Shown: piece by piece, positions 182 to 61,804 of the stretch
Numbering within the stretch: the stretch's first letter is position 1
Layout: each line of letters opens with the position of its first letter
Origin: Neolewinella lacunae
GTDB lineage: Bacteria > Bacteroidota > Bacteroidia > Chitinophagales > Saprospiraceae
Direction of reading: 5' to 3'
DNA length: 64,000 bases
NCBI RefSeq assembly: GCF_014349155.1
Contig: NZ_JACSIT010000061.1
Location: forward strand, 1-64,000
Translations under genes and position numbers: made by a program
The notes under the pieces: model-generated
Told to the model about the DNA's origin: nothing
The model's database searches: none
The model's input: only the letters and a program-made list of their open reading frames with translations

Positions 182-201
182 TGCACCTGCGGACGCGCCC
201 A
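182..201 (+). repeat. Dispersed 20-bp repeat, copy 1
   Basis: TGCACCTGCGGACGCGCCCA. Member of the dispersed family (T/G)GCACCTGCGNNCGCGCCCA. This copy lies between genes, just beyond the M16 peptidase terminator. Confidence 0.85.
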
Positions 202-207
202 AAACAG

Positions 208-244
208 AATAGCTCCGCCAGTGACCAGTCACTGCGGAGCTATT
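208..244 (-). terminator. Intrinsic terminator of the M16 peptidase gene
   Basis: AATAGCTCCG plus CAGTGAC pairs with GTCACTG plus CGGAGCTATT, 17 pairs with one bulged C and a two-base loop. On the minus strand it is followed by CTGTTTT and lies 110 bases past the stop codon of the peptidase gene. It is the strongest hairpin in the first 353 bases, which hold no gene. Confidence 0.7.
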
Positions 245-353
245 CCATTTTATGCGAGCACCGTGGCTAAAATAAAAACGAAACCGAATAATTGCTTGAA
301 TTTAGTTGCGCATTAACTACGCTGCTGCCTCTGGCGGTCATTCACGCATTAGC

Positions 354-3219: not shown

Positions 3220-3239
3220 CGGGCGCGGTCGCAGGTGCC
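3220..3239 (-). repeat. Dispersed 20-bp repeat, copy 2
   Basis: Reads CGGGCGCGGTCGCAGGTGCC on the plus strand, the reverse of the family consensus, followed by GGG. Lies in the 246-base gap between the LptE-like gene and the M16 gene; nothing else was seen in that gap. Confidence 0.85.
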
Positions 3240-9339: not shown

Positions 9340-10677
9340 TCAGGCTGTTTCGAAGTAGCGGCGGCGCTCCCAGTCGGTGACCGCCCCCGAAAATTGCCGC
9401 CATTCCCATTCGCGGGTGCGCAGGAAGTGGTCGGTGAAGTCTGGGCCGAGGATTTCCCCGGCTGTTGTGTTCCGCCGCATTGCACCTGCGGCCGCGCCCA
9501 GATCCGTCGGTAAAGATTCCCCGATTGCCTGATGGTAAGCACTGCCTTCCACGGGCGGCAGGGTAAGGGGCAGGGCCTTTTCGATGCCATACAGCCCGGC
9601 GGCAAGTGCAGCAGCGATGGCCAGGTAAGGGTTGGCATCGGCACCGGCCACGCGGGTTTCCAGGCGCGTTCCCTTCGGACTGCCGGGGATGACCCGCAGG
9701 GCCACCGTGCGGTTATCAACGCCCCAGTTGGCCCGCGTCGCCGCCCAGGAACCCGCCACAAAGCGTTTGTAGCTGTTCACGTTGGGCGCAAACATGGGCA
9801 GCAAAGCGGGCAGCAGCGCGAGCTGACCCGCTACGTAGTGCGCAAACAAGTCGCTCATGCCGTAGCGGCCCGCCGGATCGTGGAAAACGTTGTTGCCATT
9901 TTGCCAGAGCGACTGGTGGAGGTGCCCCCCGCAGCCGGGCAGAGCGGCCGACGGCTTGGCCATAAAGCTGGCGACCAGGCCGTGGCGGTAGGCGATTTCT
10001 TTAACCCCCTGCTTGAACAGCACGGCCCGGTCAGCGGCTTCCACGGCCGGACCGTAAGCAATGGCGGCCTCCATCACGCCGGGCCCCGTCTCCGTGTGCA
10101 AGCCCTCCAATGGGATACCAAAACGCCCCAGTTGCTCGAATAAATCGCGGTAAAAGGGCGCGTTCTGGCTGGTCCGGAGGCCCGAGTAGCCGAACATGCC
10201 CGGCGAGAGCGGCTCCAGGTTGGCGAAGTTTTTCGCGGCCAGGCTCCCGGGCGTTTCGGAGTAGGTAAACCATTCGTATTCCGGCCCGAAGCGGGCTTCA
10301 AAGCCCATTTCCCGGGCCTTTTCCACCGTCCGCAGCAGCAGCGCCCGCGGGCAGGCGGCCGCCATGGGTGCGTCCGACCCGGCAAAATCGGCCAGCAGGA
10401 AAGGCAGGTCGCCCTCCCAGGGAATGTTGCGGCGGCTGCCGGGCAGCAGGCGGGCCGGAAGATCGGCAAAACTACCGTCGTCGCGGCCGTTGTCGTACAC
10501 CACATCCTGGCTGTCCCAACCGAAAAGAACGTTGCAAAAACCGAAGCCTTCGCCCAGGCTCTGCAACACTTTTTCCTTGCTCAGGTACTTGGTGCGCAGC
10601 AGGCCGTCCACGTCCGTCACGCCCACTTTCACGCGGTTCGCTTCCTGTTCACGGAGCCATTGCTGAAGGTCTTGCAT
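9340..10677 (-). CDS. Glutamine synthetase family protein (GlnA-like gamma-glutamyl amine ligase)
   Basis: 445 residues from the ATG at 10677 (MQDLQQWLREQEANRVKVGVTDVDGLLRTKY); an in-frame extension to 10779 reads like intergenic DNA. It has the small beta-grasp domain at the start (VTDVDGLLRTKYLS) and the synthetase barrel: FGPEYEWF for the metal-binding glutamates, GCGGHLHQSLW for the ATP/metal histidine loop, NSYKRF and the NRTVALRVIP arginine region. The divergence and length point to the PuuA/GlnA3-type ligases that join glutamate to amines rather than to housekeeping GlnA. A dispersed repeat encodes LGAAAGA near the C-terminus. The gene is followed after 4 bases by a phosphotransferase. 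Confidence 0.85.
   Translation of the reverse strand: MQDLQQWLREQEANRVKVGVTDVDGLLRTKYLSKEKVLQSLGEGFGFCNVLFGWDSQDVVYDNGRDDGSFADLPARLLPGSRRNIPWEGDLPFLLADFAGSDAPMAAACPRALLLRTVEKAREMGFEARFGPEYEWFTYSETPGSLAAKNFANLEPLSPGMFGYSGLRTSQNAPFYRDLFEQLGRFGIPLEGLHTETGPGVMEAAIAYGPAVEAADRAVLFKQGVKEIAYRHGLVASFMAKPSAALPGCGGHLHQSLWQNGNNVFHDPAGRYGMSDLFAHYVAGQLALLPALLPMFAPNVNSYKRFVAGSWAATRANWGVDNRTVALRVIPGSPKGTRLETRVAGADANPYLAIAAALAAGLYGIEKALPLTLPPVEGSAYHQAIGESLPTDLGAAAGAMRRNTTAGEILGPDFTDHFLRTREWEWRQFSGAVTDWERRRYFETA
9481..9500 (+). repeat. Dispersed 20-bp repeat, copy 3 (inside a gene)
   Basis: TGCACCTGCGGCCGCGCCCA. On the minus-strand gene it encodes GAAAGA in a linker of the glutamine-synthetase-like protein. 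With flanks, 25 bases (9478-9502) are identical to 14397-14421. Confidence 0.9.
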
Positions 10678-10713: not shown

Positions 10714-10733
10714 ATGGCGCTGCCGCAGGTGCA
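10714..10733 (-). repeat. Dispersed 20-bp repeat, copy 4 (degenerate)
   Basis: Plus-strand reading ATGGCGCTGCCGCAGGTGCA, three mismatches to the consensus. It lies about 40 bases upstream of the glutamine-synthetase-like start. Confidence 0.55.
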
Positions 10734-10795
10734 AGGTAGGGGATACGGAGCAGAAAACGTTTGGAGGGACGATTTTCATCCCAGAGCACCGACGT

Positions 10796-14351: not shown

Positions 14352-16010
14352 ATGAGCCTCGTCTACCGCCTTGCCTTCCTTGCTATCCTAACCATTCATT
14401 GCACCTGCGGCCGCGCCCAGAACGTGCAATTGCCCGGTACAACCCTGGCCGAAGCCTCCCCGCAGGGATTGCCGCCCCGAGGCGAACGCCCGCCGGCACC
14501 GGGCCTCTACGACCTCAGCAAAATCGTGGAGATTGAGCTGACGATGCTCGACGAAAACTGGAAGAAGAAACTCAACTTCTGGAAAAAGCAGAACCTGGGA
14601 GACCGCGTACTGGCCACGCTCAAGGTAAATGGCATGACTTACGATAGCGTCGGCGTCCGCCTCAAAGGCAACAGTTCCTACTTCGGCCCCGCCCGCGAAG
14701 ACAAGAAAAAGCTGCCCTTCAACATCAAGGTCTCGGAAACCAAAAAGGACCAAAGCATCGAGGGCAAGTACCAGACCCTGAAGCTGAGCAACCTCTTCCG
14801 CGACCCCAGCTACCTGCGCGAAGCCCTGAGTTACGCCATTGCCCGCGATTACGTTGCCGCCCCCGACTGCAACTTCGCCCGCCTGACGGTCGATGGCGAA
14901 TACTACGGCCTCTACAACCTGACGGAATCGGTCGATGAGCAATTCGGGGAAGACGAGTTTAATTCCACCGACGGCCTGCTGGTCAAGTGCGACCCCGAAA
15001 GCAAAAACCCGCCGCCCAGCACCTGCCCCCCAGGCGTCGGCGCCAACCTGACCTACCTGGGCGAAGACTCGCTGTGCTACGCGGCCCGCTACGAAGTCAA
15101 GCGCTCCGAATACGGCTGGCAACAGCTCATCAACCTCACCAAGGCCCTGCAGGACGAAAAAGAAGACCTCGGCAAGCACCTTAACGTGGACGAGGCCCTC
15201 TGGATGCTGGCCTTCAACAACGCCCTGGCCAACCTCGACAGTTACCTGGGCCTGTTTTGCCACAATTACTACCTCTTCCAAGACGACAGCGGCATCTGGC
15301 GGCCCGTGGTGTGGGACCTCAACCTGAGCATCGGTGGCTTCCGCCTCGTGGAGCAAAACAAGGTACTGACGGACGAACAGCTGGCCACCATCAGCCCATT
15401 CCTGCACTTTTCCGACCGCAATGAAGACCGGCCGCTCATCCTCCGCTTGCTCGACCGGCCCCTCTACCGCAAGATGTACGTGGCCCACCTGAAGACGATT
15501 TACGAGGAGCAAATGGCTAGCGGCCTCTACCGCAAGCGGGCCGAGAAAATCCGCGCCCTCATTACTCCGTTCGTGGTTCAGGAACCCACTCCACTCTACC
15601 CCGTGGAAACCTACACACAGAACTACCACAGCTCGGTAGACGTACAGGGCGGTGCCGTCATCGGAATCGAGGAATTTTTCAAGCGGCGCAGTGAATACCT
15701 CGCGGCCCACCCCCTGTTGGTGAAACCTACCCCGGTGATTGCCGACCATTCCGCCACCCGCGACGGCGAGCAGGTAGTCATCAGCCTCTCCCTGGCCGCT
15801 GGCGAGCCCGCCGAGGCCGTCTGGGTAGCCCACCGCGCCGAAAACGCGGGCACCTTTCAGTACGCCCGCCTGGAGCCGGTGGCCGATAGCAATTACACCG
15901 TTGCCCTGCCTGCGGCCCAGGTCAAAGACTACTTTCTGGTGGCCGAGGGCAGTATCAGCGCCACGGTACTGCCCGCCCGCTCGGCCCGCGAATGGTTTAC
16001 GGTGAAATAA
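14352..16010 (+). CDS. CotH kinase family protein, exported
   Basis: 552 residues from the ATG at 14352 (MSLVYRLAFLAILTIHCTCGRAQ), a signal peptide; ATGs further upstream lack one. The CotH kinase-like fold is seen in VGVRLKGNSSYFG, then KKLPFNIKVSE, LKLSNLFRDPSYLREALSY, the catalytic-loop region FARLTVDGEYYGLYNLTESVDEQF and the metal-binding segment VVWDLNLSIGG. Family members phosphorylate proteins in spore coats or are secreted surface proteins in bacteroidetes. A dispersed 20-bp repeat forms the end of the signal peptide (CTCGRAQ), so the cleavage region is partly repeat-derived. A C-terminal domain of about 100 residues after 460 resembles an immunoglobulin-like fold. Confidence 0.88.
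   Translation: MSLVYRLAFLAILTIHCTCGRAQNVQLPGTTLAEASPQGLPPRGERPPAPGLYDLSKIVEIELTMLDENWKKKLNFWKKQNLGDRVLATLKVNGMTYDSVGVRLKGNSSYFGPAREDKKKLPFNIKVSETKKDQSIEGKYQTLKLSNLFRDPSYLREALSYAIARDYVAAPDCNFARLTVDGEYYGLYNLTESVDEQFGEDEFNSTDGLLVKCDPESKNPPPSTCPPGVGANLTYLGEDSLCYAARYEVKRSEYGWQQLINLTKALQDEKEDLGKHLNVDEALWMLAFNNALANLDSYLGLFCHNYYLFQDDSGIWRPVVWDLNLSIGGFRLVEQNKVLTDEQLATISPFLHFSDRNEDRPLILRLLDRPLYRKMYVAHLKTIYEEQMASGLYRKRAEKIRALITPFVVQEPTPLYPVETYTQNYHSSVDVQGGAVIGIEEFFKRRSEYLAAHPLLVKPTPVIADHSATRDGEQVVISLSLAAGEPAEAVWVAHRAENAGTFQYARLEPVADSNYTVALPAAQVKDYFLVAEGSISATVLPARSAREWFTVK
14400..14419 (+). repeat. Dispersed 20-bp repeat, copy 5 (in a signal peptide)
   Basis: TGCACCTGCGGCCGCGCCCA, exact consensus, encoding CTCGRA at the signal-peptide end of the CotH protein. 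This is the only canonical gene-internal copy not read as an Ala/Gly/Pro string. Confidence 0.9.
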
Positions 16011-16045: not shown

Positions 16046-16065
16046 TTTGCGCGCACGCAGGTGCC
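16046..16065 (-). repeat. Dispersed 20-bp repeat, copy 6
   Basis: Plus-strand reading TTTGCGCGCACGCAGGTGCC followed by GGGG, preceded by a run of T. Two mismatches, the same two as in copy 8 at 21201. It lies between the CotH gene and a small gene. Confidence 0.8.
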
Positions 16066-16295: not shown

Positions 16296-16338
16296 GGGAC
16301 GAACGAAAACGGTGGGTTTTAAGGCAAATGGTCTCCTA

Positions 16339-16380
16339 AACGAAAACGTCGGGCTCCACCGACGCTACGTAAGCGGCCCC
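16339..16380 (-). repeat. Hairpin repeat family B, copy 2 (inverted)
   Basis: Reverse complement of the 8255-8298 element over 42 bases, with stem CGTCGG/CCGACG. Relative to copy 1, one G is missing in one arm and the pairing C in the other arm, so the stem stays perfect. Confidence 0.8.
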
Positions 16381-21105: not shown

Positions 21106-21125
21106 GGCACCTGCGGCCGCGCCCC
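21106..21125 (+). repeat. Dispersed 20-bp repeat, copy 7
   Basis: GGCACCTGCGGCCGCGCCCC in the purD/sigma factor gap, facing copy 8. Confidence 0.9.
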
Positions 21126-21200: not shown

Positions 21201-21220
21201 TTTGCGCGGTCGCAGGTGCC
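21201..21220 (-). repeat. Dispersed 20-bp repeat, copy 8
   Basis: Plus-strand reading TTTGCGCGGTCGCAGGTGCC followed by GGG and preceded by a T run, like copy 6. It is the inverted partner of copy 7. Confidence 0.88.
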
Positions 21221-24826: not shown

Positions 24827-24827
24827 G

Positions 24828-24995: not shown

Positions 24996-26040
24996 ACCCG
25001 GGGGTAAAAACCGTCAGGAGGTCGCTACCAATCCATTCATGGCGGAGCGCTGCGGCGGAAGCGGGGAGCTGCGGTGCGGGCAGGCCAGTACCGAAGCGGT
25101 GGGGGGTAGTGAAGACGCGGGCTTCATCCCAGCACCCGGCGGTGCAGAAGGCCTGAAGGAGTGCGCTGCCGCCTTCGACGGTGACGTGGCCAAAGCCTCG
25201 CTCGTACAACTTGCCCAGCACCTGCGCCAGCGCCCCGGTGGATAAATCGGGTCCGATGGCGTACTGCGTGACTTCGAGCGAGGGACGCGGGAGGCCGGAA
25301 AACAGCAGGGGAGACGGTCCTTCGCCACGGAAGATGCGTTCCCGGCCCGTGGTGCGGTCGCGCGGGTCGACGATGACGGGCTGGGGGTGTGGGCCGGGGA
25401 ACAGGCGGGTGGTGAGGGCGGGATCGTCTTCCACCACGGTGCGTCCGCCGACGAGGATGGCCGAGGTATTCGCCCGCCAGCGGTGGACGAGGCGGCGGCT
25501 GATGGGATTGGTGAGCCAGTACTTTTGCTGGCGGTTGGCCGGGCGCAGGAATCCGTCGGCCGACTGCGCAAACTTGAGCAATACGAAGGGCCGCCCGAGC
25601 TGGGTAAAAACCCGGCGGTGGGCATTGGGGGCCAGGGTTGGGGCAAACGCCGGGTACTCCCGCACGGTAATGCCCGCTTCGCGCAGTAGGGCAACACTTT
25701 GCCCCCCCGCCCCAGTGGTGGTGTCGCGCTGGGCGAAGACGACGGTGGGGATTTTTTCGCGGCGGATGACGTCCACACAAGCCCCCGTGCGGCCGGTTAC
25801 GTAGCAGGGTTCCAGGCTGATGTAGAGTGTGCTGGCGGGAATGAGCGGCCGATCGGCGGGGCGCACGCTGGCCAGGCAATTGACCTCGGCGTGGGCTTCG
25901 CCAGCCCGCTGGTGGTAGCCCTCGCCAATAATTCGGTCGGCATGAACGAGGACGGCACCGACGCGGGGATTATCCCGCACCCGGGCATCGGCCAGCTCGG
26001 CCAACTGGGCACAGCGGAGGAGATAGTCCTGATCGGTCAT
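24994..26040 (-). CDS. ribD: Bifunctional riboflavin biosynthesis deaminase/reductase RibD
   Basis: 348 residues. The N-terminal deaminase domain has the zinc motif with HAE in GEAHAEVNCLASV and the second zinc site LEPCYVTGRTGACVDV (two Cys, the usual His-Phe replaced). The C-terminal reductase domain (about 150-348) contains KFAQSADGFLRPANRQQ and VTVEGGSALLQAF for NADPH binding. It converts the pyrimidine intermediate of riboflavin synthesis in two steps. ATG at 26040 overlaps the stop of the upstream gene by four bases (ATGA), so it belongs to a ytxJ-mnmD-ribD operon. The transcript ends into the heptamer array. Confidence 0.92.
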   Translation of the reverse strand: MTDQDYLLRCAQLAELADARVRDNPRVGAVLVHADRIIGEGYHQRAGEAHAEVNCLASVRPADRPLIPASTLYISLEPCYVTGRTGACVDVIRREKIPTVVFAQRDTTTGAGGQSVALLREAGITVREYPAFAPTLAPNAHRRVFTQLGRPFVLLKFAQSADGFLRPANRQQKYWLTNPISRRLVHRWRANTSAILVGGRTVVEDDPALTTRLFPGPHPQPVIVDPRDRTTGRERIFRGEGPSPLLFSGLPRPSLEVTQYAIGPDLSTGALAQVLGKLYERGFGHVTVEGGSALLQAFCTAGCWDEARVFTTPHRFGTGLPAPQLPASAAALRHEWIGSDLLTVFTPG

Positions 26041-37132: not shown

Positions 37133-37140
37133 GGGGGGGA

Positions 37141-37158
37141 GCACCTGCGGCCGCGCCC
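37141..37158 (+). repeat. Dispersed 20-bp repeat, copy 10
   Basis: GCACCTGCGGCCGCGCCC, the exact core, in the only sizeable gap of the eCIS operon. Confidence 0.9.
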
Positions 37159-37186
37159 TTTGTCTTACCAACCTCATTTCACCGTC

Positions 37187-40551: not shown

Positions 40552-43500
40552 ATGCCCACTACGCCCACCGCTCAAGTCCGTAACCCCCACCCCGTTCCCG
40601 CCGACGGTGCCTTCCAGCTCGACCGGCTGCCCGCCGCGCTGCAAAGCACCTACGTGGGGGTAGACGAAATGAGCACGGAAGCCTGGGTGGATTACGTCGC
40701 CCGGCTGGCGGAACTCGTTACTTACTTCGACGAGACCGAGGCCGCCCGGGGCAATTGGCTGCCTTTCTACAACAGCCAGCCGGCGGCCCTCGTGGCGCGC
40801 ATCCTCAGCTGGCCGCTGGAGCTGCTGGCCGAACGCATCAGTGCGCACCGGGAAACCATTGAGGACAATGACCTGGCGGACCCCGAGGGCGAGCGCCGGC
40901 AGCTCCTCGCCAGCCTGTTCGACCTCGTCGGCACCATCGCGATTCAGCTGGACGGGGTGGTCCGGGCATTGCCGGTCAACTCCCCCTTGCACCTGCGCGC
41001 CGGCGCCCTCATCCGCCACCGTTTGGCACCGGACCTGGCCCGCTGGATGGCCTACCACAAAGCTGCGGCGGCGGGGGGACTGCTGGATGACAACCGCGAT
41101 TTGCTGGCCCCGGATCTGGTGGGCCAACACCCGCTGGGTGGCCCCAGCCAGCGCCTCCAGGACCTGATTGACGGTACGCTGAGCCTCTCCACTTACTGGA
41201 GCGAGGGCGAAGACTGGGGCGCGTACGCAGGTGCAGTGAACGCCCAAACGGCCGTGTACGGTACGGATACGCCGGGGACGGACCCCGCCCGGGAGATCGT
41301 CCACGCCGCTGGCCACACCTTTTTCCACGGCATCTACGAGGGTTTCGTCAGTGCGCTGCTGCACCTGCGCCAGCAGGCCCAGACCGAATGGGAACGTCTG
41401 CTGCAAAGCCCCGATCACGCCCCCCACCTGGCCTTGCTGCTGGCCTTTCTGGAAGTCAGACGCCGGCAGCAAAGCATGCTTAATGCACTGACGGACCGTC
41501 ATCTGGACTTCTACTACCGCCGGGTGCTGCGCCTGGCTCCGGGGGCGGCAGCCGCTCCGCAGGCATTCCTCCACCTGGAGGCGCGCAACGGCGTGACGGC
41601 AGCGTACCTGCCCGCCGGCACCGTCTTCCGCGGCGGTAAAGACGAAGCGACCAAACGGGAGCGCCGCTTTCTGAGCAAGGCTCCCGTCAGCGTTTCCACC
41701 GCCCGGATTGCGGAAATGCGCGCCATCTTCAAGGTGGCCCAAAACCCCGCCATCTTTGCCTTCCCCGGCGAAAACCGGCCGGTATTTGCCCCGGCCGACG
41801 GCGGGCGCCTCTACGCCGCCACCGTAGTGAACAGCACTGACGGACTGGGCGAAGCGCTTCCCGAGGGCAGCGAAAGTTGGCACCCCTTTGGTTACCGCGC
41901 TCCGTCGGGAACCCAACTGACGGCGGGAATGCCTACTGCCCGGCAGGGACTGGCCATCAGCAGCCACTACCTCTACCTGGCCGAAGGGACGCGGACGGTG
42001 CGCCTGACGATGAATGGTACAGGCGTTGCGGCCCTGGTGGGCAAGACCTTCAACGTGGCCCTGAGCACCGAAGAAGGCTGGTGGGAAAGCACCGCAACGG
42101 TGGCCGCCGGGCGGGTGCTCACCATTTCCCTGAGCCCCAACGACCCGGCCATCACGGCCTACAACGAAGAAGTCCATGCACTGGGCCTGGACGTTCGCCA
42201 CCCCGTTTTGCAACTCACCCTACGGCAAGTGCCGGGGGTGGCCTACGACTACCAGGCACTGCGGGGAGTAGAACTCAGCCAGATTAATTTGTTCGTAGCC
42301 GTCAGCGGCGCGAAACAGTTGCAGCTAAGTGGTCCGACGGGGCCGCTGGATCCTGCCAAGAGCTTTTATCCCTTCGGTGCGGCACCCAGCGGCCAGGAAG
42401 TCCTCACGATCGGCCACCCGGAATCATTCCAGAAAGCCGCCAACATTGACGTGAAATACGGCTGGAAAAACTCCGTCCCCAGTTCTGCCCCCACCATGCG
42501 GGTGGAGATACTGACGAATGGCAGTTGGGTGCGCCACGACAACTACAACGAAGTCATCAGCGGCTACCAAACCAACAACCGTGCCTTCACCGTGGGGGCG
42601 GGCAGTACATTGCCGGCCGGGGGGGACGGCAGCCCAGGGTTTTCGGCGGCGGCCAGCCGGGGGTTTGTCCGTTTTAAATTGCAGGGGGACTTTGGGCACC
42701 GGGCCTATCCGGGCGCCCTGGCCAGGGCTTTGGCCATAGGGGGAACGAATCCCATCCTCCCCGCCCTGCCCTTCGACCCCGAGCTGGACTACCTGACGCT
42801 GGACTACGATGCCAGCATCAACCTGGGGACCAGCGCGGTGAACGACACGGACGATACCCAGATCCACCACCTCCTGCCCTTCGGAACTGCCCTGCCGGAG
42901 GTGAGGTACGGCCGCTTTCCGCTGCTGGCCGAGGTATTGCCCCAGACGGAGCCGACCATGGACGCCGGCGCGCTCTACCTCGGCATCGAAGCCTGGGTTC
43001 CGGGGAGCCAACTGAGTTTACTGGTGGTGGTGGACGAAGGCTCCGCCGACCCCTTACTCGAAAAACCCGCCGAACACCTGACCTGGGAATACCTGCACGA
43101 CAACCGCTGGACGGCTTTCCCGGCCGATAAACTTCAGGACGATACCGATGCGCTGCTGCGGTCGGGCTTGGTCCGGCTGGACCTCCCGGCGGGCACCCGA
43201 GCCCGCAACCGCCGTTTCGGCGACGAACTCCTCTGGCTCCGTATCCGGGCCGGCAAGCACACCGATGCGGTTAACTACCTGCGTGGGGTGCACGCCCACG
43301 GAGTGCAAGTAGGCCAGGAGCTGGCGGCAGCTGACACCGTGAACCTCAGTCCTTTACCCCCGGCGACCATCACGAAGCTGCTGCTCCCCGCGCCGGGCAT
43401 TAAGAAAATTACGCAGGCTTACCCCAGTTTCGGGGGACGACCGACGGAGGCGCGCAATGCTTACTTCACCCGACAAAGCGAAAGACTGCGGCACAAAGAC

Positions 43501-44211: not shown

Positions 44212-47200
44212 TGCAACCGATCAACCCCGCCATCGCTCCCCACCCGGCCGAAGATTACGCAGGCATGCGCGCCGAGGGTTTTGCCGCCATTGAGCGGCTG
44301 GCTCACCAGCGCTGGACCGACTACAATGCCCACGACCCGGGTATTACCCTGTTGGAAAACCTGTTGTATGCACTGGCCGAAACCGGTTACCGGGGGCAGT
44401 TTGACCTGGCGGATTTGCTTACCGGCCCGGGAGGAGCGATTGATCACCGCCAGCCTTTTTTCACTGCCCGGCGGATCCTGACTGGGGCTCCGCTGACCAA
44501 CGACGATTTCCGGCGGCTCCTCATTGATAGCCTGGGGCTGAGCAATGCCTGGGCCATTTGCAAGCAGTGTGCCTGCGGGCCCCTACTCTTCGCGGAGTGC
44601 AAAGACGGTGAACTCAGCACCGCCCCCCGCTGGCGACTGGCCCTGGATCCCAGCAACCGCCGTGAAGAACACCCCGTGCGCATCCAGGGCTTTACCGACT
44701 TCCTGCTGCAGTTTGCCACCGACCAGGAATACGGCAACCTCAATAGTCACCGCCTGGACGGAACCTTGGTTTATCCACTCCCCGCAGGCGAGTTCCTTTC
44801 CATCCCCGCCGAACTGCGGTTCCCGGATTGGCGACAGCTTTCGGAGTCTGCCTACCGGGAAGTCAGTGCCTCCACCACCGTTTTGGAGGGGCTTACGATT
44901 GAGCGCTTCAGCCGTGACCGTACTTTGTTGGAGCCGGTTGATGCCGATGATTTCCGGCGGGGTGTGCGGGACATTTTCTTTCTGGACGTCACGCTCCGCC
45001 TGCGGACGGGCGACGGGGCCCTGATTCAACTGCTCCTCACGGAGATCACCCTGCGGGTGTGGCTGGGGGCGGAAGACGCGGCCTTGATTGACCCGCCCAC
45101 GCTGGAAGCCCTCCTCGGCCAAAGCGACCTCTTTGCCCGCTACCTTGGCAAACTCCAGCGCCGCGAAGGCATCCTGGCCACGAGCCAGCGTTTACTGCAT
45201 GACAACCGGCGGGTGGGCGAAGACTACTGCCGCGTGGATGGCATCCGCGCGGAAGACGTTGCGGTGTGCGCCGATCTTCACCTGACTCCGGGTGCGGACG
45301 TAGAGCAAACCCTGGCCCTGGTGTACTACACCCTCGAAAGTCTCCTCAATCCCCTGGTGCCCTTCCGCACACTTGCCGAATTGGAAAGTCTGGGCATCCC
45401 GACGGAGGCCATCTTTACGGGGCCGCCCTTGCAGCAGGGCTTTTTGCTGCAGGAAGACCTGGATGCGGCCCAACTGCGGAGCGTCGTTTACGTCAGTGAC
45501 CTCGTCAATGCCCTCATGGACTTGCCGGGTGTGAGCACCCTGGAGGCCCTGCGCTTTACGGTGTACGACGCTGACGGGCGTCCGTTGGCACCCGCTCATC
45601 CGTGGTGCATTCCCGTCAGCCCTGGCCACTATCCGGCGCTGTACCTGGCCGCTTCGCAGGTGATGGTCTACAAAGATGGATTGCCACTCTTGCCCCGGCG
45701 GGCGGAGTTGCGGTCGGTGCTGGCCCAGTTGCGGGCGGCCGACCGGGCAGTGGCTCTGCCGACGGAGCAACTCGACTATCCCGTACCAACGGGTAAGCAC
45801 CGCCCCGCGCCGGAGTACCTGCCGGTTCAGCGGACCTTGCCGACCATTTACGGCCTGAGCGAAGAAGGTTTGGGCGCGGACGCAGGTGCCGGGCGGAGGG
45901 CAAAGGCAAGGCAACTGGCAGGCTACCTCTTTCCCTTCGAGCAGATTGTTGCCACCACGGCCCAACAACTTGCCGGCTTCGGCGACCTCTTCTCCACCGA
46001 TGAGGCCGTTGCGGCGACCTACCCCCACCCCAGCCTGGCGGGGGCGGGCGAGCCGTTGGGGCACCTGGCGGAGTTGCTGACCCCGGCCGCCACGCCCGCC
46101 GCCCTGCGCGATCTGCTGGAACCCGCCGGGCGTTTTGCCGACCGAAGGAACCGCTTCCTCGATCACTTATTGGCCCGCTTCGGGGAGTCCATTGCCAACT
46201 ATTCCCTGCTCATCCACGACCAAAGCACGCGCCGCGCGTACGGTCCGGAGAAACTCATCCAGGACAAGGTGCGCTTCCTTCGCTTTTACCCCGAGATCAG
46301 TGGGCGACGGGGAACGGGCATCAACTACACCCGGGCGGAGGGCGTTTGTGCCTACCGCAACCGTAGCGGCCTGGGGGAAAGGATCCGCCGCCTGCTGGGG
46401 ATGGAGGACGCCCGGGCTTATTTCAGTTTAGAGACGGAACGCATTGAAGGCGGCTGGAAGAGCGGCTTTGTCGTGACGGCCCCGGCTCCCAACCTTTCCA
46501 TGGCACCTGCGCTCCGGCGCCCCAGTGGTGAATCCACGGACCCTCCCGGCATCTACGGCGCGACCGCCGAGGAGGCCGAAGCCCGGGCCTGGGAGGTGGT
46601 GCGCGAGCTCATCGAACTGGCCCCCGACCCCGCCAACTACGCGGGAGATGAACTCCACAACGCCGCCGGGGAAGCCCTGGCGACGCTAGGTGCGGGTGTG
46701 ACGCAGCAGGAGGTGGCCGATTTTTTCTCCGCCGCCCTGGCCCGCGAACGGCTCTACGTGGTGGAGCATATTTTGCTGCGGCCCAAGTTTCCCGGCGATG
46801 CCCTGCTTAGCGTCTGCCTGGCCGAGAACTGTGAACACTGGGGGATGGAAGACCCCTACTCCTTCCGCATCACCTACGTCTTGCCCGCCGACGTGGAACC
46901 CTTCAGCCAGGATATGGAACTGCGGCGCTACGCCGACCGGCTCATCCGCCGCGAAACGCCCGCCCACCTGCTGCCGAAGCTCTGCTGGGTCAGCGATGCC
47001 AAGGCCGAAAGCGAATACTCGCCCGAGGAACTGGCGGAGCTGGCCGAACAGTGTCGCTGCCCCGTCCCCGATGCCCTGGCCCGCCAACTGAGCCGCTTCG
47101 AGGCCGTCTACTGCGCCTACCTGGAGCGGAACAAAGACTTTGCCTGGACGGCCCTGAACGACGAACTGAGCAGTGCGGTGCTGGACCTGCTGCCCCCCGC

Positions 47201-51862: not shown

Positions 51863-53103
51863 TGGCCGCCCAGCACCATATTCTCCGCCAGCATCTGGTG
51901 TTGGCCGCCAGTGGGATTGCGCCTTTGGCGGCTAATACCTGGCACGAGCGCCTGGACCTACTTCAGGCCAGTACCATCCTGCCCGCCCTTGAGCGGCAGT
52001 TGGCGGCCGTGGACCCAGGCAGGGAGGAAGTGGTGATTGAGCGACTGGAAATTACGGTGGAAGCCCCGGGCCTGGATCAGCTTGAAGCGACACTGGAAGC
52101 ACAAATTGCCCCGCTGTTGGCCAAAGCATTGCGCCAAGCAATGCCGGAGCTTAATGGCCCCCGGACGGCAGCCGTCCCCTTCATTCAACACTTGGTCCAC
52201 TACCTGCAAACGGGCAACCTGGGGCCGAGTTTTAGTGATGCAGCGGCTTTTCAAGCGGCTTTGGCAGCCTGGTATGCCGTTGCCGACCGGGGTGATTGGG
52301 AGCTTTTGTTCGAGTTGGCGGTTGCGGCACCGGAAAGGATATTTGGGCGCATCGCGCAGGTGCCGGGCCAGTCGCTTTGGGCGCAAGGCTGGGCCACCCT
52401 GCGGAAGCTCTACCCCCACCAGGTTGGACAACATCCCGCCCCTGCCCTACCCCACCAGGCACCGCCCCACGGCGATTTGAACCTGTGGGTAGCCACCCTT
52501 AAAGCGGCGGGCTACGGGAACAAAAGGGCAGCCCTTACCAACCAGCCAAGCCCCAGCAAAAGCCTCCCTCAACTTGCGCAGGCTTCGGGATCAAGCCCGG
52601 GTGCCCCCACAACCTGGTACCCGGAAAACGCGGGCATTGTGTTGCTGCACGCCTACCTACCCTACCTCCTTAAGGAAACAAATTTATTGGACGACGACGG
52701 CCTTCCCCGCTACGGACCAGCGGCGGCCTTATTGCATTACTGCGCTTTTGGCCAGCCCAACGGCCAGGAATGGGACTACCCCCTGACCAAAGTCCTGCTG
52801 GGCCTGACGCCCGACGACTACCTGCCCGGCCCAGGTGCACCACTGTCAGCGGAGCCCCTGGCCTTTGCGGATGCTTTCCTGGAGGGCGTCATCGAAAACT
52901 GGGGAGCCCTTGGCCAGGCCAGTCCCGCCGCCCTGCGCGATGCCTTCCTGCAACGCCCAGGATTACTCCGCCGTCAGGGACGCACCTGGCACCTGACGGT
53001 GGACCGCAAGCCTTATGACGTCCTGCTGGACCGCCTGCCCTGGGGCATCAGCATGGTAAAAGCCCCTTGGATGCCGGACCTTCTACAAGTCGCCTGGTCA
53101 TGA
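51862..53103 (+). CDS. Contractile injection system tape-measure-type protein (Pvc14 family)
   Basis: 413 residues. Opens MAAQHHILRQHLVLAASGIAP and carries helical repeats; the C-terminal signature NAGIVLLHAYLPYLLKETNLLDDDG... followed by LHYCAFGQ and the ending DVLLDRLPWGISMVKAPWMPDLLQVAWS is that of the CIS tape-measure family in bacteroidetes. It is shorter than Photorhabdus Pvc14 and may share length setting with the following giant protein. A variant dispersed repeat at 52344 encodes GRIAQVPG. It overlaps both neighbours (one base with the previous, four with the next). Confidence 0.85.
   Translation: MAAQHHILRQHLVLAASGIAPLAANTWHERLDLLQASTILPALERQLAAVDPGREEVVIERLEITVEAPGLDQLEATLEAQIAPLLAKALRQAMPELNGPRTAAVPFIQHLVHYLQTGNLGPSFSDAAAFQAALAAWYAVADRGDWELLFELAVAAPERIFGRIAQVPGQSLWAQGWATLRKLYPHQVGQHPAPALPHQAPPHGDLNLWVATLKAAGYGNKRAALTNQPSPSKSLPQLAQASGSSPGAPTTWYPENAGIVLLHAYLPYLLKETNLLDDDGLPRYGPAAALLHYCAFGQPNGQEWDYPLTKVLLGLTPDDYLPGPGAPLSAEPLAFADAFLEGVIENWGALGQASPAALRDAFLQRPGLLRRQGRTWHLTVDRKPYDVLLDRLPWGISMVKAPWMPDLLQVAWS
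52344..52364 (-). repeat. Dispersed repeat, copy 15 (one extra base)
   Basis: TGGGCGC-ATCG-CGCAGGTGCC followed by GGGC. The arms fit the family with a one-base longer centre. Encodes GRIAQVPG; could be coincidence. Confidence 0.5.
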
Positions 53104-56100
53104 TCGAAGCCCGTGCCCAACGCCCTCGCCCCGCCCCCCGCAAGGCGGAATCCTTACTGCCACTGGTGGGTGGGGCGGGCCAGGCATTGCTTCCTACTCC
53201 CCTCCTTGCACCTGCGGCCGCGCCCAAAACCGACGCTGACCAACTTGCGGAAACCGCCCTCCTGGCTCCGGCGGACCTGGCCGCAAATGCCCCGCGTGCC
53301 ATTGAGATGGCCCCCGAGGCCCCGGAAGCACCCTCCCCGGAAGACCCCGCCGAAGCAGGTGCCGAGGCCGAACTGGCCGTGGAGGAAAGTCCGCGGATGG
53401 AAGTGGAACTGATCATCCCTCCACCCTCGCCCGAGATCGAGGCCCGATCCAGCCAGGGCGCACGCTCCGCCAGCGGTGGCATGGGCGGCGCAGGCAGTGC
53501 TAACCAGGCCCTACCTCCCGCCGATGAAAATGCCCAAACCGCCCGCACCAACGTCCAGGAACCCGACGCCGAAACCCTCGCCCGGGCCGACGCCGCCCTG
53601 ACCGCCACCCTGCGCGAAGTTCCGGCCCCCAGCCCCGAAATTGAGCAGCTCTGCGACGACATCCAGGACGCCATCGAAAACCGCCGGCCCGTCGACGAAG
53701 ACAGCCTGCGCCGCGCCAACCCCGCCGCAGAAGCCCAGGCCGTGGGCGATAACCTCAATTCCGACATCCAGGGCAGTGCCGATAACGTCAGCGGCACTTA
53801 CGACGCCGTCAACGACCCCACCAGCGGCACCCCCGAGCAAGTAAGCGCCCCCCTGCCCGAGCCCGCCACCTCGGTGGCCACCCCTCCCGTCAACGCCGCC
53901 GGAGCCAGCCCACCGGCCAGCGATCCGGAAGACTTAGACCTGGGGCCGGACCTGGCCGCTACCAGTAACTCCGTTGAAGAAGCCGGGATGACTACCGAAC
54001 CCGCCGAGCTGGTAGAGGACGAACCCTTTGCCTCGGCGCGCGAGGGGCTCTCCGAGCTGGAAGCCACCGCAGCCATCGCCCCGGCGGAAGTGATGCGCCA
54101 GGAGCAGGAAGCCATTGCCAGCAGCCAGGCCAGCATGCGTGCCCTGCAGGTCCAGGCCCTCCAAGCCCTGGAAAACAGCCGGGGCAACACCATTCAGGAC
54201 ACCTTGGGTGGCCAACTGGCCATGGCCCGCACCGAAGAAGAAAAACGGGTGGCCGCCTCGGCTGCCGCCGACACCATCTTCACCCGAGCCCAGGACGCCG
54301 TCAACGCCCTGATCGACCCGATGGTCTCCACCGCCATGGAGCGCTGGACGGCGGGCAAAAACCGCATCGTTGGCGAGTTCGACCGCGAGCTCCAGCGCGC
54401 CAAAGACCTGGTCGATGAGCGCCACGAAGGCATCGGCGGAGCCATCGTCTCCATCTGGGACGACGTCACCGGCCTGCCCAGCAGCATCACCCGCATCTAC
54501 GACCGGGCCGAAGCCACTTTCGGGCGGGAGATCTGTGCACTGATCCGGGAAATTTCCACCTACGTAAATGGCATCGTCATCGCCTGCGAAGAGTTGATTG
54601 ACAATGCCGACCGGGACATCCAAAACCTGTTCGACAGCCTGGGGCCCGAGCTGGCCACCTGGGCAGCGCAGCAACGGGGCGGCTTCCAGGAGCGGCTCGA
54701 TGGCCTGCGCAATCGGGTCCACGAGACCCAGACCAACTTTACCAACGACCTGGTCAGCCAGGCCGGCGACGCGGTGCAAGAGGCCCGCGAACGCATCGAT
54801 GCCCTCCGGGAAGCGGCCAAGGGACTCATCCAGAAAGTAGCCGACGCCGTCAATGCCTTCCTGGAAGATCCGGTGCGGGCCATCATCAATGGCCTGCTCT
54901 CTTTGGTGGGGATTGCGCCGGGGGCCTTTTGGGCTTTAGTGGCCCAGATTGAGCAGGTGGCCAGCGACATTGCCGACGACCCGAGGAACTTCGCCAACAA
55001 CCTTATGGCGGCCGTGGGGCAGGGTTTTAGCCAGTTTTTCGATAATTTTTTCACCCACCTCCTATCGGGCTTCTTGACCTGGATGTTTTCGGCCATGGGG
55101 GCGGTGGGGGTGCAGTTGCCGCCGGATATGTCGGTGGGCAGCATCATCACCTTCTTTTTGCAGTTGATGGGCATTACCTGGCCCAACATCCGCCAGATTC
55201 TGGCCCGGCACATCGGGGAGGAAAACGTGGCTTTACTGGAGCAGGCCTACGAGCTACTGAGCATCCTCATTACCCAGGGGCCAGCCGGCATTTATGAGAT
55301 GATTCGCGAGCGGTTGGACCCGGCCATGATCCTGCAAAGCATCATCGATGCGGCGGTGAGCTATTTGGTGGAACGCATTGTGGCGATGGCTACGGCGCGT
55401 TTACTCATGCTCTTCAATCCGGTGGGAGCCATCGTACAGGCCATTGAGGCGATCTTCCGGGTGTTGCAGTGGATATTTCAGAATGCGGCGCGGATTTTCA
55501 GCCTGGTCCAGACCATTGTCAGTGGCGTCGCCGACCTCATTGCGGGCAACATCGGGGGCATGGCCGCACGGGTGGAGCAGGCCCTGGCGGGCTTGTTGGT
55601 GCCCGTGATTGACTTTATTGCCAGCTACCTGGGCCTGGGCGACTTGCCAGAGCGGGTAGCGGATGTGGTGAAGGGTTTTCAGCAGATGGTCCTTGGAGCC
55701 ATCGACCAGGCCATTGGTTTTCTGGTGGAGCGGGCACGGGGGCTTTTGGCGAATTTGGGTTTGGGCGCGGGCGCAGGTGCAGAAGATGGGGATAATGAGC
55801 TGGGGGATGATGAGGTGGGGAAGAATAAAACCTTCAGTGGCGGAGGGGAAGGCCATCGGATGTGGATCGGCGTAGGGGGAAGCACCACCGTGATGGTGGC
55901 CAGTGGCACGCCGGAACCGCTGGGCACCAAAGTAAGGCGTTGGATTGGGGAGGTGGGGGATTTGCCCGCCGCCGAAGCCGCCGAAGCCCGGGGGCTGCTC
56001 CAACGCGTGAGCGCTCAGGAAGGCATCCTTTTGACTGAGGCGGAGCAAGCCAAACTTGCCATCGCCCAGGCGGACGGGCCAGCGGCAGACCCTGCCCTGA

Positions 56101-57329
56101 TTGCCACCGCCCAAACCGAGGACGCCGAGGTAGAGCGCAAGCAGGATGAACTTGCCCCGGAAGTGGGGCGGCTATTTGATATTTTTGAGGGGGGGGTGCC
56201 CTTTCAAGCCTTTAACCGTCAGGGCAACCTGGGCACTGCCCGCCTACCCTTCACCGTAGAGGAAAGAAGTGGTGACCTCAAAGTAGAAATGGGCGGAAGC
56301 AGCCTGACGGGCAAACTCAACGCAATGGCCTACGGGCCTACCGCACAGGCACATCACCAACACGGCAACCAACTGATACAAAGCGTGCTGGAAGCGACGG
56401 ACCCCGCCGTGCGTTTCATCGAACGGGTATCGGTTCGCAACGGCCGATTGCAATCTCCACTCCTTCAGGAGGTACAATCCAATGCCAACACCATTGAATC
56501 CCAACTCTCTACGCTGGGCCCCACCAAGGCACATTCCCTGGCCCACCTGAGCGCGCCGCCCCCCCACAACATTCAACGGCAGGAAATAGCCTTTACCCCC
56601 GATGCAGCCGTCCCCCTGAACAATGCGGCGATGCTGACGGAATACGACCGCCAACTGGACTTGCAAACCCAGGGCATCAACCAACTATTGGTGGACCAAT
56701 GGGTGCTCAACCGGAACGCGTACAGCGTAGACGAATCGCGTTTTGCCGCTCTGGATTCAGAACAACGCAGGGTGCTGCTGTTGGAACTCAACCGCCGCGC
56801 CACGGCAGCGAATAACGTCAGCCGCGCCAACGTTACCAAATACCAACGGGCGCTGGATGCCCTGGCCGAAATTGAGGCGGATCCGGACAATGCAGATCCC
56901 TCCGCTTTCGTCCGCGTGGAAGCAGTTTCCGGCCGGATCGGCAATGAGACGCAATGGAAACGAGTCCACATCACCCAAAGGCCCGGTCTCCTAGCCCAAG
57001 TCCGCGCTGAAATGGAACTGCAATACCCGGGATGGACACAAATCACCGCGCAGTACAATATCTTACACAATGCCGACCAGGTGGCGGGGGGATTCGGCAC
57101 CATCCCTGCCGTCGCCTTGCAGGCCGAACCCGGGCCCGACGGAGACCTGGCCACATGGCGGGCATACCTCCAGCACCTGGCCCAGTACATAGGTTCGGCC
57201 GACGTAAACCAGGCCATCGGGCGCAGCTGGAGAACCCGCTACGAATCGTTGCACACCGGCATCACCACAGCCTACCCGCCGGAAGGTTGGGGCATCTGGA
57301 AAATGAATGTATCACTAAGAAGAAGCTAG
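53100..57329 (+). CDS. Putative eCIS effector with C-terminal Ntox15-like (Tde1-type) nuclease domain
   Basis: 1409 residues from the ATG at 53100, whose AT overlaps the preceding TGA (ATGA). Residues 1-330 are Ala/Pro/Glu rich and probably unstructured. Residues about 400-620 are helical (coiled coil), 620-890 contain long amphipathic or hydrophobic helices (FLTWMFSAMGAVGVQLPPDMSV, SIITFFLQLMGITWPN, LPERVADVVKGFQQMVLGAIDQAIG), and GAGAGA at 888-894 comes from a dispersed repeat. The C-terminus carries ILHNADQVAGG (His1323, Asp1326) and ADVNQAIGRSWRTRYESL, matching the HxxD motif and VN-IG-W-R pattern of Ntox15 DNases such as Tde1. Delivery as cargo is inferred from position before a probable immunity gene. 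Confidence 0.62.
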   Translation: MIEARAQRPRPAPRKAESLLPLVGGAGQALLPTPLLAPAAAPKTDADQLAETALLAPADLAANAPRAIEMAPEAPEAPSPEDPAEAGAEAELAVEESPRMEVELIIPPPSPEIEARSSQGARSASGGMGGAGSANQALPPADENAQTARTNVQEPDAETLARADAALTATLREVPAPSPEIEQLCDDIQDAIENRRPVDEDSLRRANPAAEAQAVGDNLNSDIQGSADNVSGTYDAVNDPTSGTPEQVSAPLPEPATSVATPPVNAAGASPPASDPEDLDLGPDLAATSNSVEEAGMTTEPAELVEDEPFASAREGLSELEATAAIAPAEVMRQEQEAIASSQASMRALQVQALQALENSRGNTIQDTLGGQLAMARTEEEKRVAASAAADTIFTRAQDAVNALIDPMVSTAMERWTAGKNRIVGEFDRELQRAKDLVDERHEGIGGAIVSIWDDVTGLPSSITRIYDRAEATFGREICALIREISTYVNGIVIACEELIDNADRDIQNLFDSLGPELATWAAQQRGGFQERLDGLRNRVHETQTNFTNDLVSQAGDAVQEARERIDALREAAKGLIQKVADAVNAFLEDPVRAIINGLLSLVGIAPGAFWALVAQIEQVASDIADDPRNFANNLMAAVGQGFSQFFDNFFTHLLSGFLTWMFSAMGAVGVQLPPDMSVGSIITFFLQLMGITWPNIRQILARHIGEENVALLEQAYELLSILITQGPAGIYEMIRERLDPAMILQSIIDAAVSYLVERIVAMATARLLMLFNPVGAIVQAIEAIFRVLQWIFQNAARIFSLVQTIVSGVADLIAGNIGGMAARVEQALAGLLVPVIDFIASYLGLGDLPERVADVVKGFQQMVLGAIDQAIGFLVERARGLLANLGLGAGAGAEDGDNELGDDEVGKNKTFSGGGEGHRMWIGVGGSTTVMVASGTPEPLGTKVRRWIGEVGDLPAAEAAEARGLLQRVSAQEGILLTEAEQAKLAIAQADGPAADPALIATAQTEDAEVERKQDELAPEVGRLFDIFEGGVPFQAFNRQGNLGTARLPFTVEERSGDLKVEMGGSSLTGKLNAMAYGPTAQAHHQHGNQLIQSVLEATDPAVRFIERVSVRNGRLQSPLLQEVQSNANTIESQLSTLGPTKAHSLAHLSAPPPHNIQRQEIAFTPDAAVPLNNAAMLTEYDRQLDLQTQGINQLLVDQWVLNRNAYSVDESRFAALDSEQRRVLLLELNRRATAANNVSRANVTKYQRALDALAEIEADPDNADPSAFVRVEAVSGRIGNETQWKRVHITQRPGLLAQVRAEMELQYPGWTQITAQYNILHNADQVAGGFGTIPAVALQAEPGPDGDLATWRAYLQHLAQYIGSADVNQAIGRSWRTRYESLHTGITTAYPPEGWGIWKMNVSLRRS
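53207..53226 (+). repeat. Dispersed 20-bp repeat, copy 16
   Basis: TGCACCTGCGGCCGCGCCCA, exact, encoding LAPAAAPK in the disordered N-terminus of the putative effector. Confidence 0.92.
55762..55781 (-). repeat. Dispersed 20-bp repeat, copy 17
   Basis: TGGGCGCGGGCGCAGGTGCA, encoding LGAGAGAE at the boundary between hydrophobic helices and the C-terminal part of the putative effector. Confidence 0.9.
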
Positions 57330-59377: not shown

Positions 59378-59397
59378 TGCACCTGCGGCCGCGCCCA
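59378..59397 (+). repeat. Dispersed 20-bp repeat, copy 18
   Basis: TGCACCTGCGGCCGCGCCCA, exact, in the ilvE leader between the predicted promoter and the start codon. Confidence 0.92.
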
Positions 59398-60562: not shown

Positions 60563-60599
60563 TTGCCCCTCTGGACAGAAGTAATTTAACCTGAGGCTG

Positions 60600-60690
60600 G
60601 AGCTGGGAATGTAAATGGCCGCTGGTTAAGTTCTGTAGTTCTGTCGGGGATTACGTTCTCACTACCAAACTACAAAACTACCGAACTCCC
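60600..60690. repeat. Heptamer words in the ilvE / oxidoreductase gap
   Basis: ACTACCA AACTACA AAACTACC and on the other side GTAGTTCTG; the arms can pair (GTAGTT/AACTAC). Same vocabulary as 5353, 24912 and 31336, here between converging genes. Confidence 0.5.
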
Positions 60691-60766
60691 TTCTGACGGG
60701 TTTTGAATAACATTTACTGGTGATTATTGCCAGTAATGTGTTGTCGTGGCCCAACCGCAGGTCAAT

Positions 60767-61804
60767 TTACTCGCCGGGGTACTTGAGCCCCACCATGTCC
60801 CGCACCCGCGTGAGCGTCCGGTGGAGGGCCAGCGAATCGTCCAACGACCATTTGGCGTTCTCCCGGCGGCCGTTGCGCACGTCGTCCATCACGGCGAGGG
60901 CCTCGAATTTGTAGCCGTTGGCGCCTTCGAAGTCGAAGTAAAAATTTTCGGGTGCCGCGTCTTTATCGCGCAGGATACTGAAGCTGCTGGGCTCGTGCCA
61001 GCGCGGATGCCAGTGGATCATGGCCCCGGAACCGATGATGAAGGCCTCGGTTTTGGTCCGCCCCAGTACCGTGGAGTAGTTGTGGGAAAGCTTGCCGCTG
61101 GCGTGGACGCAGGTTACCTGGGTTTCCAGGTCGATGCCCTGCGGCGAGAGCCGCGCGGTGGCGCTGATTTTCTCGGGTTCCCCGAGGAGAAATTGGGAAA
61201 GGAACTGGGGGTAAATGCCAATGTCAAGCAGTGCACCGCCGCCCAGCGCGGGGTTGAGAATCCGGTTGTGCGTAAGGTCGATGGTGGGCGCGGACGCAGG
61301 TGCCGGGGAAGTCAGGATACCCGCCAGGTCTCTGGCCCGAAAACCAAAGTCGGAGCGGACGCTCTGTACCTCGCCGATGGCCCCGGAAGCAATGAGTTCT
61401 TCCAGTTTCAGCGTAGAAGGCAAAAAGCGCGTCCACAGGGCCTCCAGCAGGTAAACGCCCTCGGCCCGGGCTACGCCGACCATTTCTTCCACTTCGGCCA
61501 GGTTGAGGCCCATGGGCTTCTCGCAAATCACGGGGATGCCCCGGCGCAGACACATCAGCGTCAGTTCCCGGTGCTGCACGTGGGGCGTGGCAATGTAGAC
61601 GGCATCCACCCGGGGGCCCGTGAAGGTCTCCTCGTAAGTACCCGCCACGTGCTCCGCCCCGTAGGCATCGGCAAAGGCGCGGGCGCGTTCCAGGGAGCGG
61701 GATCCAACGGCCACCAGGCGGGCATCGGGGATGAGGGCGAGGTCGTCGGCAAATTTCCGGGCGATGTTCCCCAGGCCAAGAATGGCAAAATGAAAATCAG
61801 ACAT
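60767..61804 (-). CDS. Gfo/Idh/MocA family NAD(P)-dependent oxidoreductase
   Basis: 345 residues. N-terminal Rossmann fold with ILGLGNIARKFADDLALIPD, a VYIATPHVQHRELTLMCLRRGIPVICEKPMGLNLAEV segment with the conserved EKP lysine, and a C-terminal alpha/beta half typical of this family, seen in GGGALLDIGIYPQFLSQFLLG. Members oxidise sugars or inositol-like molecules. A dispersed repeat inserts PAPASAP into the region after LAGILTS, where homologues usually have a short loop. ATG at 61804. Substrate unknown. Confidence 0.93.
   Translation of the reverse strand: MSDFHFAILGLGNIARKFADDLALIPDARLVAVGSRSLERARAFADAYGAEHVAGTYEETFTGPRVDAVYIATPHVQHRELTLMCLRRGIPVICEKPMGLNLAEVEEMVGVARAEGVYLLEALWTRFLPSTLKLEELIASGAIGEVQSVRSDFGFRARDLAGILTSPAPASAPTIDLTHNRILNPALGGGALLDIGIYPQFLSQFLLGEPEKISATARLSPQGIDLETQVTCVHASGKLSHNYSTVLGRTKTEAFIIGSGAMIHWHPRWHEPSSFSILRDKDAAPENFYFDFEGANGYKFEALAVMDDVRNGRRENAKWSLDDSLALHRTLTRVRDMVGLKYPGE
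61285..61304 (-). repeat. Dispersed 20-bp repeat, copy 19
   Basis: TGGGCGCGGACGCAGGTGCC followed by GGGG. In the minus-strand oxidoreductase gene it encodes PAPASAP between two conserved segments. Confidence 0.9.

Follow-up and report, generated by a model that had tools for sequence, protein, structure and literature searches.

A dispersed DNA word with dialects in Lewinella/Neolewinella (Bacteroidota): a putative uptake sequence

Background

What keeps a long DNA word, in both orientations, at place after place in a bacterial genome? The question is raised by 64,000 nucleotides of Neolewinella lacunae (contig NZ_JACSIT010000061.1, positions 1 to 64,000), a stretch that we call the window. 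An earlier note had pointed to a dispersed 20-base word there and had offered several explanations, namely a mobile miniature element, a DNA-uptake word, a structural word and a protein-binding word. We followed the word through the window, the whole genome (G000; 5,815,296 bases in 154 contigs, 99 % complete) and other genomes. A base-by-base reading covered 464 kb, that is the window plus 400 kb, or 8 % of G000. Genes were taken from a home-made codon-usage caller (84 % coding).

Results

Abundance and accuracy of the word

With up to three mismatches allowed on both strands, the 20-mer KGCACCTGCGNNCGCGCCCA is found at 16 places in the window (Table 1), against a mean of 0.50 and a maximum of 3 in 100 dinucleotide shuffles; the claim that it occurs far beyond chance stands. 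Eight of these places match exactly, three with one mismatch, three with two and two with three. A tighter core, GCACCTGCGNNCGCGCC, fits all 16 places with at most one mismatch and 12 of them exactly. To speak of about 15 canonical copies was therefore somewhat generous. All 15 places listed before do hold the word, with the corrections that the one given as 37141 begins at 37140 and that a copy at 25217, with three mismatches, had been missed. The two central bases had been described as free. This is true of the first (G in 61 %, T in 20 %, A in 12 % and C in 6 % of 127 copies in the 464 kb), whereas the second is C in 86 %.

Table 1. Copies of the word, and the elements upstream of one of them, in the window. 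Mismatches are to the 20-mer unless the core is named.
Feature	Positions	Strand	Match	Context
word	182..201	+	exact	intergenic; hairpin-like inverted repeat then follows
word	3220..3239	-	1 mismatch, core exact	intergenic
word	9481..9500	+	exact	within glutamine synthetase gene (minus strand), codons GAAAGA
word	10714..10733	-	3 mismatches, core 1 (A variant)	intergenic
word	14400..14419	+	exact	near start of CotH-domain protein, reads as signal peptide (..IHCTCGRAQ)
word	16046..16065	-	2 mismatches, core 1	intergenic
word	21106..21125	+	1 mismatch, core exact	intergenic; inverted pair with 21201..21220
word	21201..21220	-	2 mismatches, core 1	intergenic; inverted partner of 21106..21125, 79 bp between cores
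word	25217..25236	+	3 mismatches, core 1	within ribD-like gene; at most 1 mismatch at same site in G002, G009
TGCTCC box	37099-37104	+		upstream of 37140 word
C6..G7..G7 element	37116-37139	+		between box and core of 37140 word
word	37140..37159	+	2 mismatches, core exact	intergenic; hairpin-type copy
word	41216..41235	-	1 mismatch, core exact	antisense within 1220-aa ORF
word	45871..45890	-	exact	antisense within 1133-aa ORF
word	53207..53226	+	exact	108 bp from called start of 1410-aa ORF
word	55762..55781	-	exact	antisense within the same 1410-aa ORF
word	59378..59397	+	exact	intergenic
word	61285..61304	-	exact	within 346-aa ORF called on minus strand

Some of the genes in the window deserve a remark of their own. 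The very large ORF at 53067-57329 (1420 aa) has an Ntox15-like domain towards its end, and the neighbouring ORFs 40552-44211 and 44211-47609, each of more than 1100 aa, have no Pfam match.

Far from sinking to background frequency genome-wide, an outcome that would have spoken against the word, the core occurs in the whole of G000 1344 times with at most one mismatch, as against 4 times for the reversed pattern. Its density, 231 copies per Mb, is lower than that of classic DUS and USS, which lies at about 800-1000 per Mb. With 663 copies forward and 681 reverse, the earlier claim of both orientations extends to the whole genome. In the 464 kb there are 88, 116, 128 and 189 copies at up to 0, 1, 2 and 3 mismatches, and 0, 1, 15 and 79 of the reversed control; since no excess is left beyond two mismatches, the copies form one sharp class, with no smear around it. 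A strand bias of the Chi or KOPS kind was looked for and is absent, both in G000 and in 400 kb of a 1.3-Mb contig of G019 (32 forward, 33 reverse). An apparent excess on the forward strand among the first matches listed from G019 vanished over those 400 kb.

Genomic context and anatomy

Of the 116 copies that the 464 kb hold at up to one mismatch, 79 are intergenic and 37 (32 %) coding. That conserved protein sequence might fix every copy is at odds with this intergenic majority and with the constraint on silent sites of the tested coding copies (see below). The word takes little notice of gene direction: 20 coding copies lie on the gene's strand and 17 on the opposite one, and in the 41 spacers between tandem genes 22 copies have the same orientation as the genes and 19 the opposite. 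Eight of the 37 coding copies have the gene's orientation and lie no more than 80 bp from a called start; those read by eye resemble signal peptides ending in C-T-C-x-x-A-Q. Where two words stand less than 300 bp apart, they are inverted in 13 of 14 cases, with only one spacer below 39 bp; the inverted pair at 13603 and 13638 of L138 has an 18-bp spacer and lies between convergent genes.

Spacing is fairly even. After clusters are merged, the coefficient of variation of the gaps is 0.71 as against 0.91 at random (2000 draws, P 0.0005); when copies are taken singly, the effect is smaller (0.82 against 0.97, P 0.025). Intergenic preference could partly create this evenness, because the null model leaves that preference out. 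The longest gap without a word, 20 kb, includes some 8 kb of genes low in GC (33-51 %), among them one for a Schlafen-helicase/S24 protein, but also a 2240-aa ORF at 63 % GC. The two 4-kb bins below 45 % GC, few data as they are, hold no copy.

Information in the word is concentrated in GCACCTGCG, a two-base spacer and CGCGCC, followed by C or A and an A-rich tail. Pyrimidines are frequent in the 30 bp immediately upstream of intergenic words (a share of 0.62, against 0.50 in random intergenic stretches), and a [CT]GCTC box stands 19-22 bp upstream of 22 of 54 plain intergenic, 5 of 29 coding and 3 of 8 gene-start copies. In the remaining, hairpin-type intergenic copies (25 of 79), an CCCCCCTTCGGGGGG..GGGGGG element is placed between box and core; here the box is found at 41-44 bp in 20 of 25 copies and at 19-22 bp in none, a displacement of some 22 bp, or about two helical turns. 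The flanks of the 116 copies vary, and no shared element boundary is seen in them.

Two further observations concern the neighbourhood of the word. The C6-TTC-G6-NN-G6 hairpin element abuts a word in 26 of its 37 occurrences in the 464 kb, and arrays of the ACATC type (ACATCNNACATC) are placed directly upstream of words at L148:6667, L151:19863, L152:6735 and L152:6844.

Substitution and silent-site constraint at coding copies

Orthologues were fetched for three stretches of the own genome, which gave usable ones for 7 of the 29 coding copies outside gene starts. Where aligned, the relatives are about 64-83 % identical in DNA, with no very close strain pair among them. At the glutamine synthetase site the core is exact in G002, G005, G008 and G009, has one mismatch in G007 and G012 and two in G004 and G011; in G006 and G001 it has 7-8 mismatches and no gap. 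Two sites in an 821-aa protein and the one in the ribD-like gene follow the same pattern. A further copy, at 3270 of L142, is confined to G000; of the relatives, three align there free of gaps and G007 is three residues longer. The word alters residues, as in LARPQVQ in G000 against ISREEVR in G010. In short, all seven tested copies lie in alignable codons, in which sister species either have the word or differ from it by substitutions; for coding copies this contradicts a mobile miniature element, since, that one longer relative apart, the sites align without insertion.

When G000 is compared with eight relatives in which the main word is plentiful, 81 of 87 four-fold third bases are kept inside the word and 524 of 1212 in the flanking codons (Fisher P 1.6e-21, with sites taken as independent although orthologues share descent). 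From codon-matched flanks only 30.6 of the 87 would be expected to be kept, and the excess is seen in 6 of the 7 copies. In six relatives with other or mixed words (G001, G004, G006, G010, G011 and G012), four-fold sites are mildly conserved as well, with 16 of 26 kept inside the word and 159 of 398 in the flanks (P 0.04). The silent-site excess and the gap-free orthologues together mean that the DNA word itself is maintained, and that at the tested coding sites it arises by substitution.

Distribution and dialects

A search of 60 genomes shows the word to be abundant in the genus Lewinella/Neolewinella alone. All 20 same-genus relatives have matches (some of these genomes are incomplete: G003 88 %, G009 55 %), in numbers from 3 to 1581: the main word reaches 1581 copies in G005 and 1409 in G014, numbers 1157 in G018 and 1067 in G002, and is scarce in G001 (3), G010 (8), G006 (37) and G004 (100). 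In other genera 8 of 39 genomes have any match, with at most 6 each. A scan of one genome per species for exact TGGCACCTGCGNNCGCGCC gave at least 102 stretches, among which 69 belong to Neolewinella, Lewinella, Saprospiraceae or one Bacteroidia MAG and the remaining 33 to scattered taxa. The exact 19-base form GCACCTGCGNCCGCGCCCA was found in 27 stretches among 2.9 million viral contigs, with one or two matches each. No such word emerged from k-mer counts on 60-80 kb from each of G021-G025 and G033, which represent six further genera of the family; the power of this sample is weak.

Unbiased k-mer counts put the main word at the top of the dispersed k-mers in G000 and different words at the top elsewhere. 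In G010 the word is TGCTACTTTG-N2-RGYCAAAA, with 37 exact 10-mers in 120 kb (17 intergenic, 20 coding); genome-wide, G010 has 707 exact CAAAGTAGCARTG, and none of the other genomes among the 60 has more than 2. The word of G001 is TTACCTGCGCTCCGCCGCCCA, and its genome holds 496 copies of an ACCTGCGCTCCGCCGCC type. With at most one mismatch, ACCYGCGCTCCGCCGCC occurs those 496 times in G001, 220 times in G006, 174 in G012, 172 in G020, 148 in G016, 28 in G000 and never in G010; 19 genomes of other genera have 2 in total. G013 prefers GCACCTGCGGCAGCGCC (60 kb) and G019 GCACC(C/T)GCGACCGCGCC (400 kb); G004, G012, G016 and G020 look mixed. By k-mers G006 has no clear word of its own, yet it has the copies of the G001 type just mentioned. 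The same is true of 60 kb of G004, which genome-wide has, beside its main-word copies, 82 of the G001 type.

A common layout can be made out in these words: a T-rich edge, an ACCTG-like left half, a loose centre, a GC-rich right half and a CA tail (G010 being aligned by eye). The words carried by G010 and G001, the two genomes poorest in the main word, are dialects, and we count the forms preferred by G013 and G019 with them. Related dialects are not fully exclusive between species, since G000 itself has G001-type copies. In a tree of a LepA-like protein (family name by eye) from 13 members of the genus, G010 is excluded from a fully supported group of the 12 others; most of the remaining forks have weak support.

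Competence genes

ComEC is present in one copy in each of the 19 genus genomes examined. Outside the family, 8 of 11 genomes have it too, and in the order overall it is present in 27 of 30; being so common, it discriminates nothing. The ATPase of type IV pili and type II secretion (PF00437, PilB/PilT-like) was not found in the 21 genus genomes, where the best score is 25 bits over a short P-loop stretch, as compared with 410-423 bits in G041 and G046. A receptor of the type known for DUS, a minor pilin, would thus be left without its platform.

Riemerella, likewise of the Bacteroidota, offers a comparison. Its transformation needs ComEC, DprA, ComF, RecA, DUF5689, helix-hairpin-helix and DUF1343 proteins, and an eighth essential protein lies in the outer membrane and has a carboxypeptidase regulatory-like domain; one of the eight is predicted to be fimbrial, and none of those named is a recognised type IV pilus component (PMC8459023). 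R. columbina favours its own DNA, and the only frequent k-mers reported for it are A/T-rich ones of low complexity (PMC7965970). Riemerella would be like the putative system of Neolewinella in the ComEC/DprA/ComF/RecA route, in having no recognised pilus component among the essential proteins named and, in R. columbina, in the preference for own DNA. It is unlike it in its k-mers and in the pair formed by DUF5689 and a receptor, which most of the Neolewinella genus lacks.

DUF5689 is absent from 20 of 21 genus genomes, G010 being the exception, and its receptor-like partner is missing in all six DUF5689-less genus genomes checked; in the eight genomes checked, the partner is full-length only in G010 and G021. 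We therefore rejected this pair as the uptake gate of the main clade, as both members are found only in G010 among genus genomes. The missing gate in the main clade is the weakest link of an uptake reading. In G010 itself (L343:5673-10601) a protein resembling a TonB receptor adjoins one with three DUF5689 domains, an arrangement that resembles the Riemerella competence pair.

Discussion

What the word might be

We think it rather probable, by analogy with the DUS of Neisseria and the USS of Haemophilus, that the word is a DNA-uptake sequence kept by biased uptake and recombination. A surface or periplasmic receptor would prefer fragments with the word, and recombination of such fragments into the chromosome would favour alleles that carry it. 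At every place where the sequence can bear it, point substitutions would then build up the word across the genome ('molecular drive'), and drift of receptor specificity between species would give rise to dialects. Such a scheme supposes that uptake is the step at which the word is recognised, that the genus is naturally competent, and that there is a receptor, presumably not pilus-based, which co-evolves with the word. Spread into coding DNA by substitution, a long word kept uniform, no preference for either strand, inverted pairs and dialects are, in combination, what PMC3630211 and PMC1939737 report of uptake sequences.

The main rival, in our view an unlikely one, would make the word the site of a genus-specific intracellular DNA-binding protein that serves to organise, replicate or repair the chromosome and that varies in specificity between species. 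Genome-wide and fairly even spacing would suit such a protein, as would the intergenic preference and the bipartite look of box and core, with the box shifted by about two helical turns. However, a binder needs no near-perfect site at more than 1000 places and need not alter residues in conserved genes, polar orientation is absent, and a wholesale swap of the word at hundreds of sites would be costly; these points are arguments and amount to no exclusion. A cellular binder could share several features of the word, but does not readily explain the near-perfect long word or the entirely different one of G010. The earlier suggestion of an uptake or protein-binding word is supported as a whole by substitution spread, silent-site constraint, dialects, a fairly even spacing and the lack of a strand bias, data that do not separate its two halves. 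A self-marking word, read in the cell by immune or recombination machinery as a non-polar Chi-like signal or a nuclease-sparing tag, would agree with the dialects, the restriction to one genus, the absence from the low-GC genes with the Schlafen-type helicase and the rarity in viral contigs. Yet there is no strand polarity, and some drive would still be required for such a tag to spread by substitution, so we consider it improbable.

The remaining readings fare worse still. Spread by insertion of a mobile repeat (REP, MITE or RAYT type) could account for intergenic enrichment, inverted pairs and the C-G hairpin element beside the core, and a few Y1 transposase matches do occur in the genus (2 in G000, 0-7 per genome). 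These do not seem to track copy number, however, G018 with its 1157 copies having no Y1 match at all; together with varied flanks that share no boundary and tested coding copies that align with their orthologues, for which the idea is largely refuted, this makes it very improbable. We give equally little credit to a transcription terminator, a promoter or an RNA-processing element: intergenic preference and the close inverted pair between convergent genes would fit, but not the indifference to orientation in tandem spacers or the third of the copies that lie within genes. Protein-coding constraint or a codon-bias artefact, for which one could cite GC-rich codons and the similar CTCxxAQ stretch encoded by some gene-start copies, retains next to no probability and is already refuted by the intergenic majority on both strands and by the codon-matched silent-site comparison. 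The mobile-element, terminator, Chi-like and coding readings were accordingly set aside on the strength of gap-free orthologues, both orientations, lack of polarity and silent-site constraint.

Comparison with known systems

The DUS of 10-12 bases is shorter than the Neolewinella word, which has at least 15 fixed bases. USS have a strong core with weaker flanking segments, as does the word. The HIP1 octamer of cyanobacteria, a palindromic 8-mer whose function is unproven, is likewise genome-wide; the word differs from it in being long, directional and split into dialects. With REP/RAYT elements the word shares a dispersed, largely intergenic placement and inverted pairs, and it departs from them in its coding copies, in that no insertions were seen and in showing no evident link to the number of Y1 transposase matches. 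Neisseriaceae DUS are like the word in having thousands of copies, coding as well as intergenic, inverted pairs and dialects with a common core (PMC3630211), and Pasteurellaceae USS in accumulating by point change under a drive (PMC1939737). Neolewinella stands apart from the former in its phylum, in the lower density and in that no type IV pilus ATPase was detected, and from the latter in its pyrimidine-rich flanks, the [CT]GCTC box and an unrelated sequence. The coding share of uptake words is given as 35 % in the gonococcus and 65 % in H. influenzae (PMC1939737), as compared with 32 % for the Neolewinella word. We do not file the word as a DUS or USS, although it would work like one, because the pilus platform, as judged by its ATPase, was not detected and the role in uptake is putative.

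Whether the word represents a third, independently evolved uptake-sequence system, in the Bacteroidota, is a question on which we are evenly balanced. By analogy, such a system would combine pilus-free import, at least five word variants within the genus (four related, and one, in the basal species, entirely different) and a putative receptor in the envelope, which may span both core and upstream box. Established uptake sequences belong, in the literature compared here, to two proteobacterial families, and among the matches listed from the open-licence PMC literature there was no account of a repeated or uptake word in Lewinella/Neolewinella. If the reading is correct, uptake sequences would have a third origin, in a different phylum and with no type IV pilus involved, and preference for self DNA would prove to evolve repeatedly. 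Such an origin would point to a new DNA receptor, and would make the debate on adaptation versus drive testable in a genus whose 21 genomes allow words and dialects to be compared. Several cultured type strains have the word, and foreign DNA in the genus might be easier to recognise with its help.

Other repeats

The window and its genome hold repeats of other kinds. The repeat at 10790-10980 has relatives on C66, C82 and C20; at C73:83072-85952 its copies are numerous and lie next to a match resembling a Y1 transposase (C73:83499). It may form a REP/RAYT family of its own, separate from the word. The repeat at 16337-16500 has matches on C22, C51, C52, C67, C82, C129 and elsewhere, in stretches of about 45-160 bp that are 77-96 % identical. 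Two k-mer families, AACTATGAACTA (30 occurrences, on both strands) and CTTAGTGGTTCAA, are enriched in the 464 kb made up of the window and L133-L152. In G001, intergenic tandem arrays of CACTCCGAGGT are found at L188:1479-2060 and L186:10837-11320, and in L188 they alternate with ACCTGCGAGCG.
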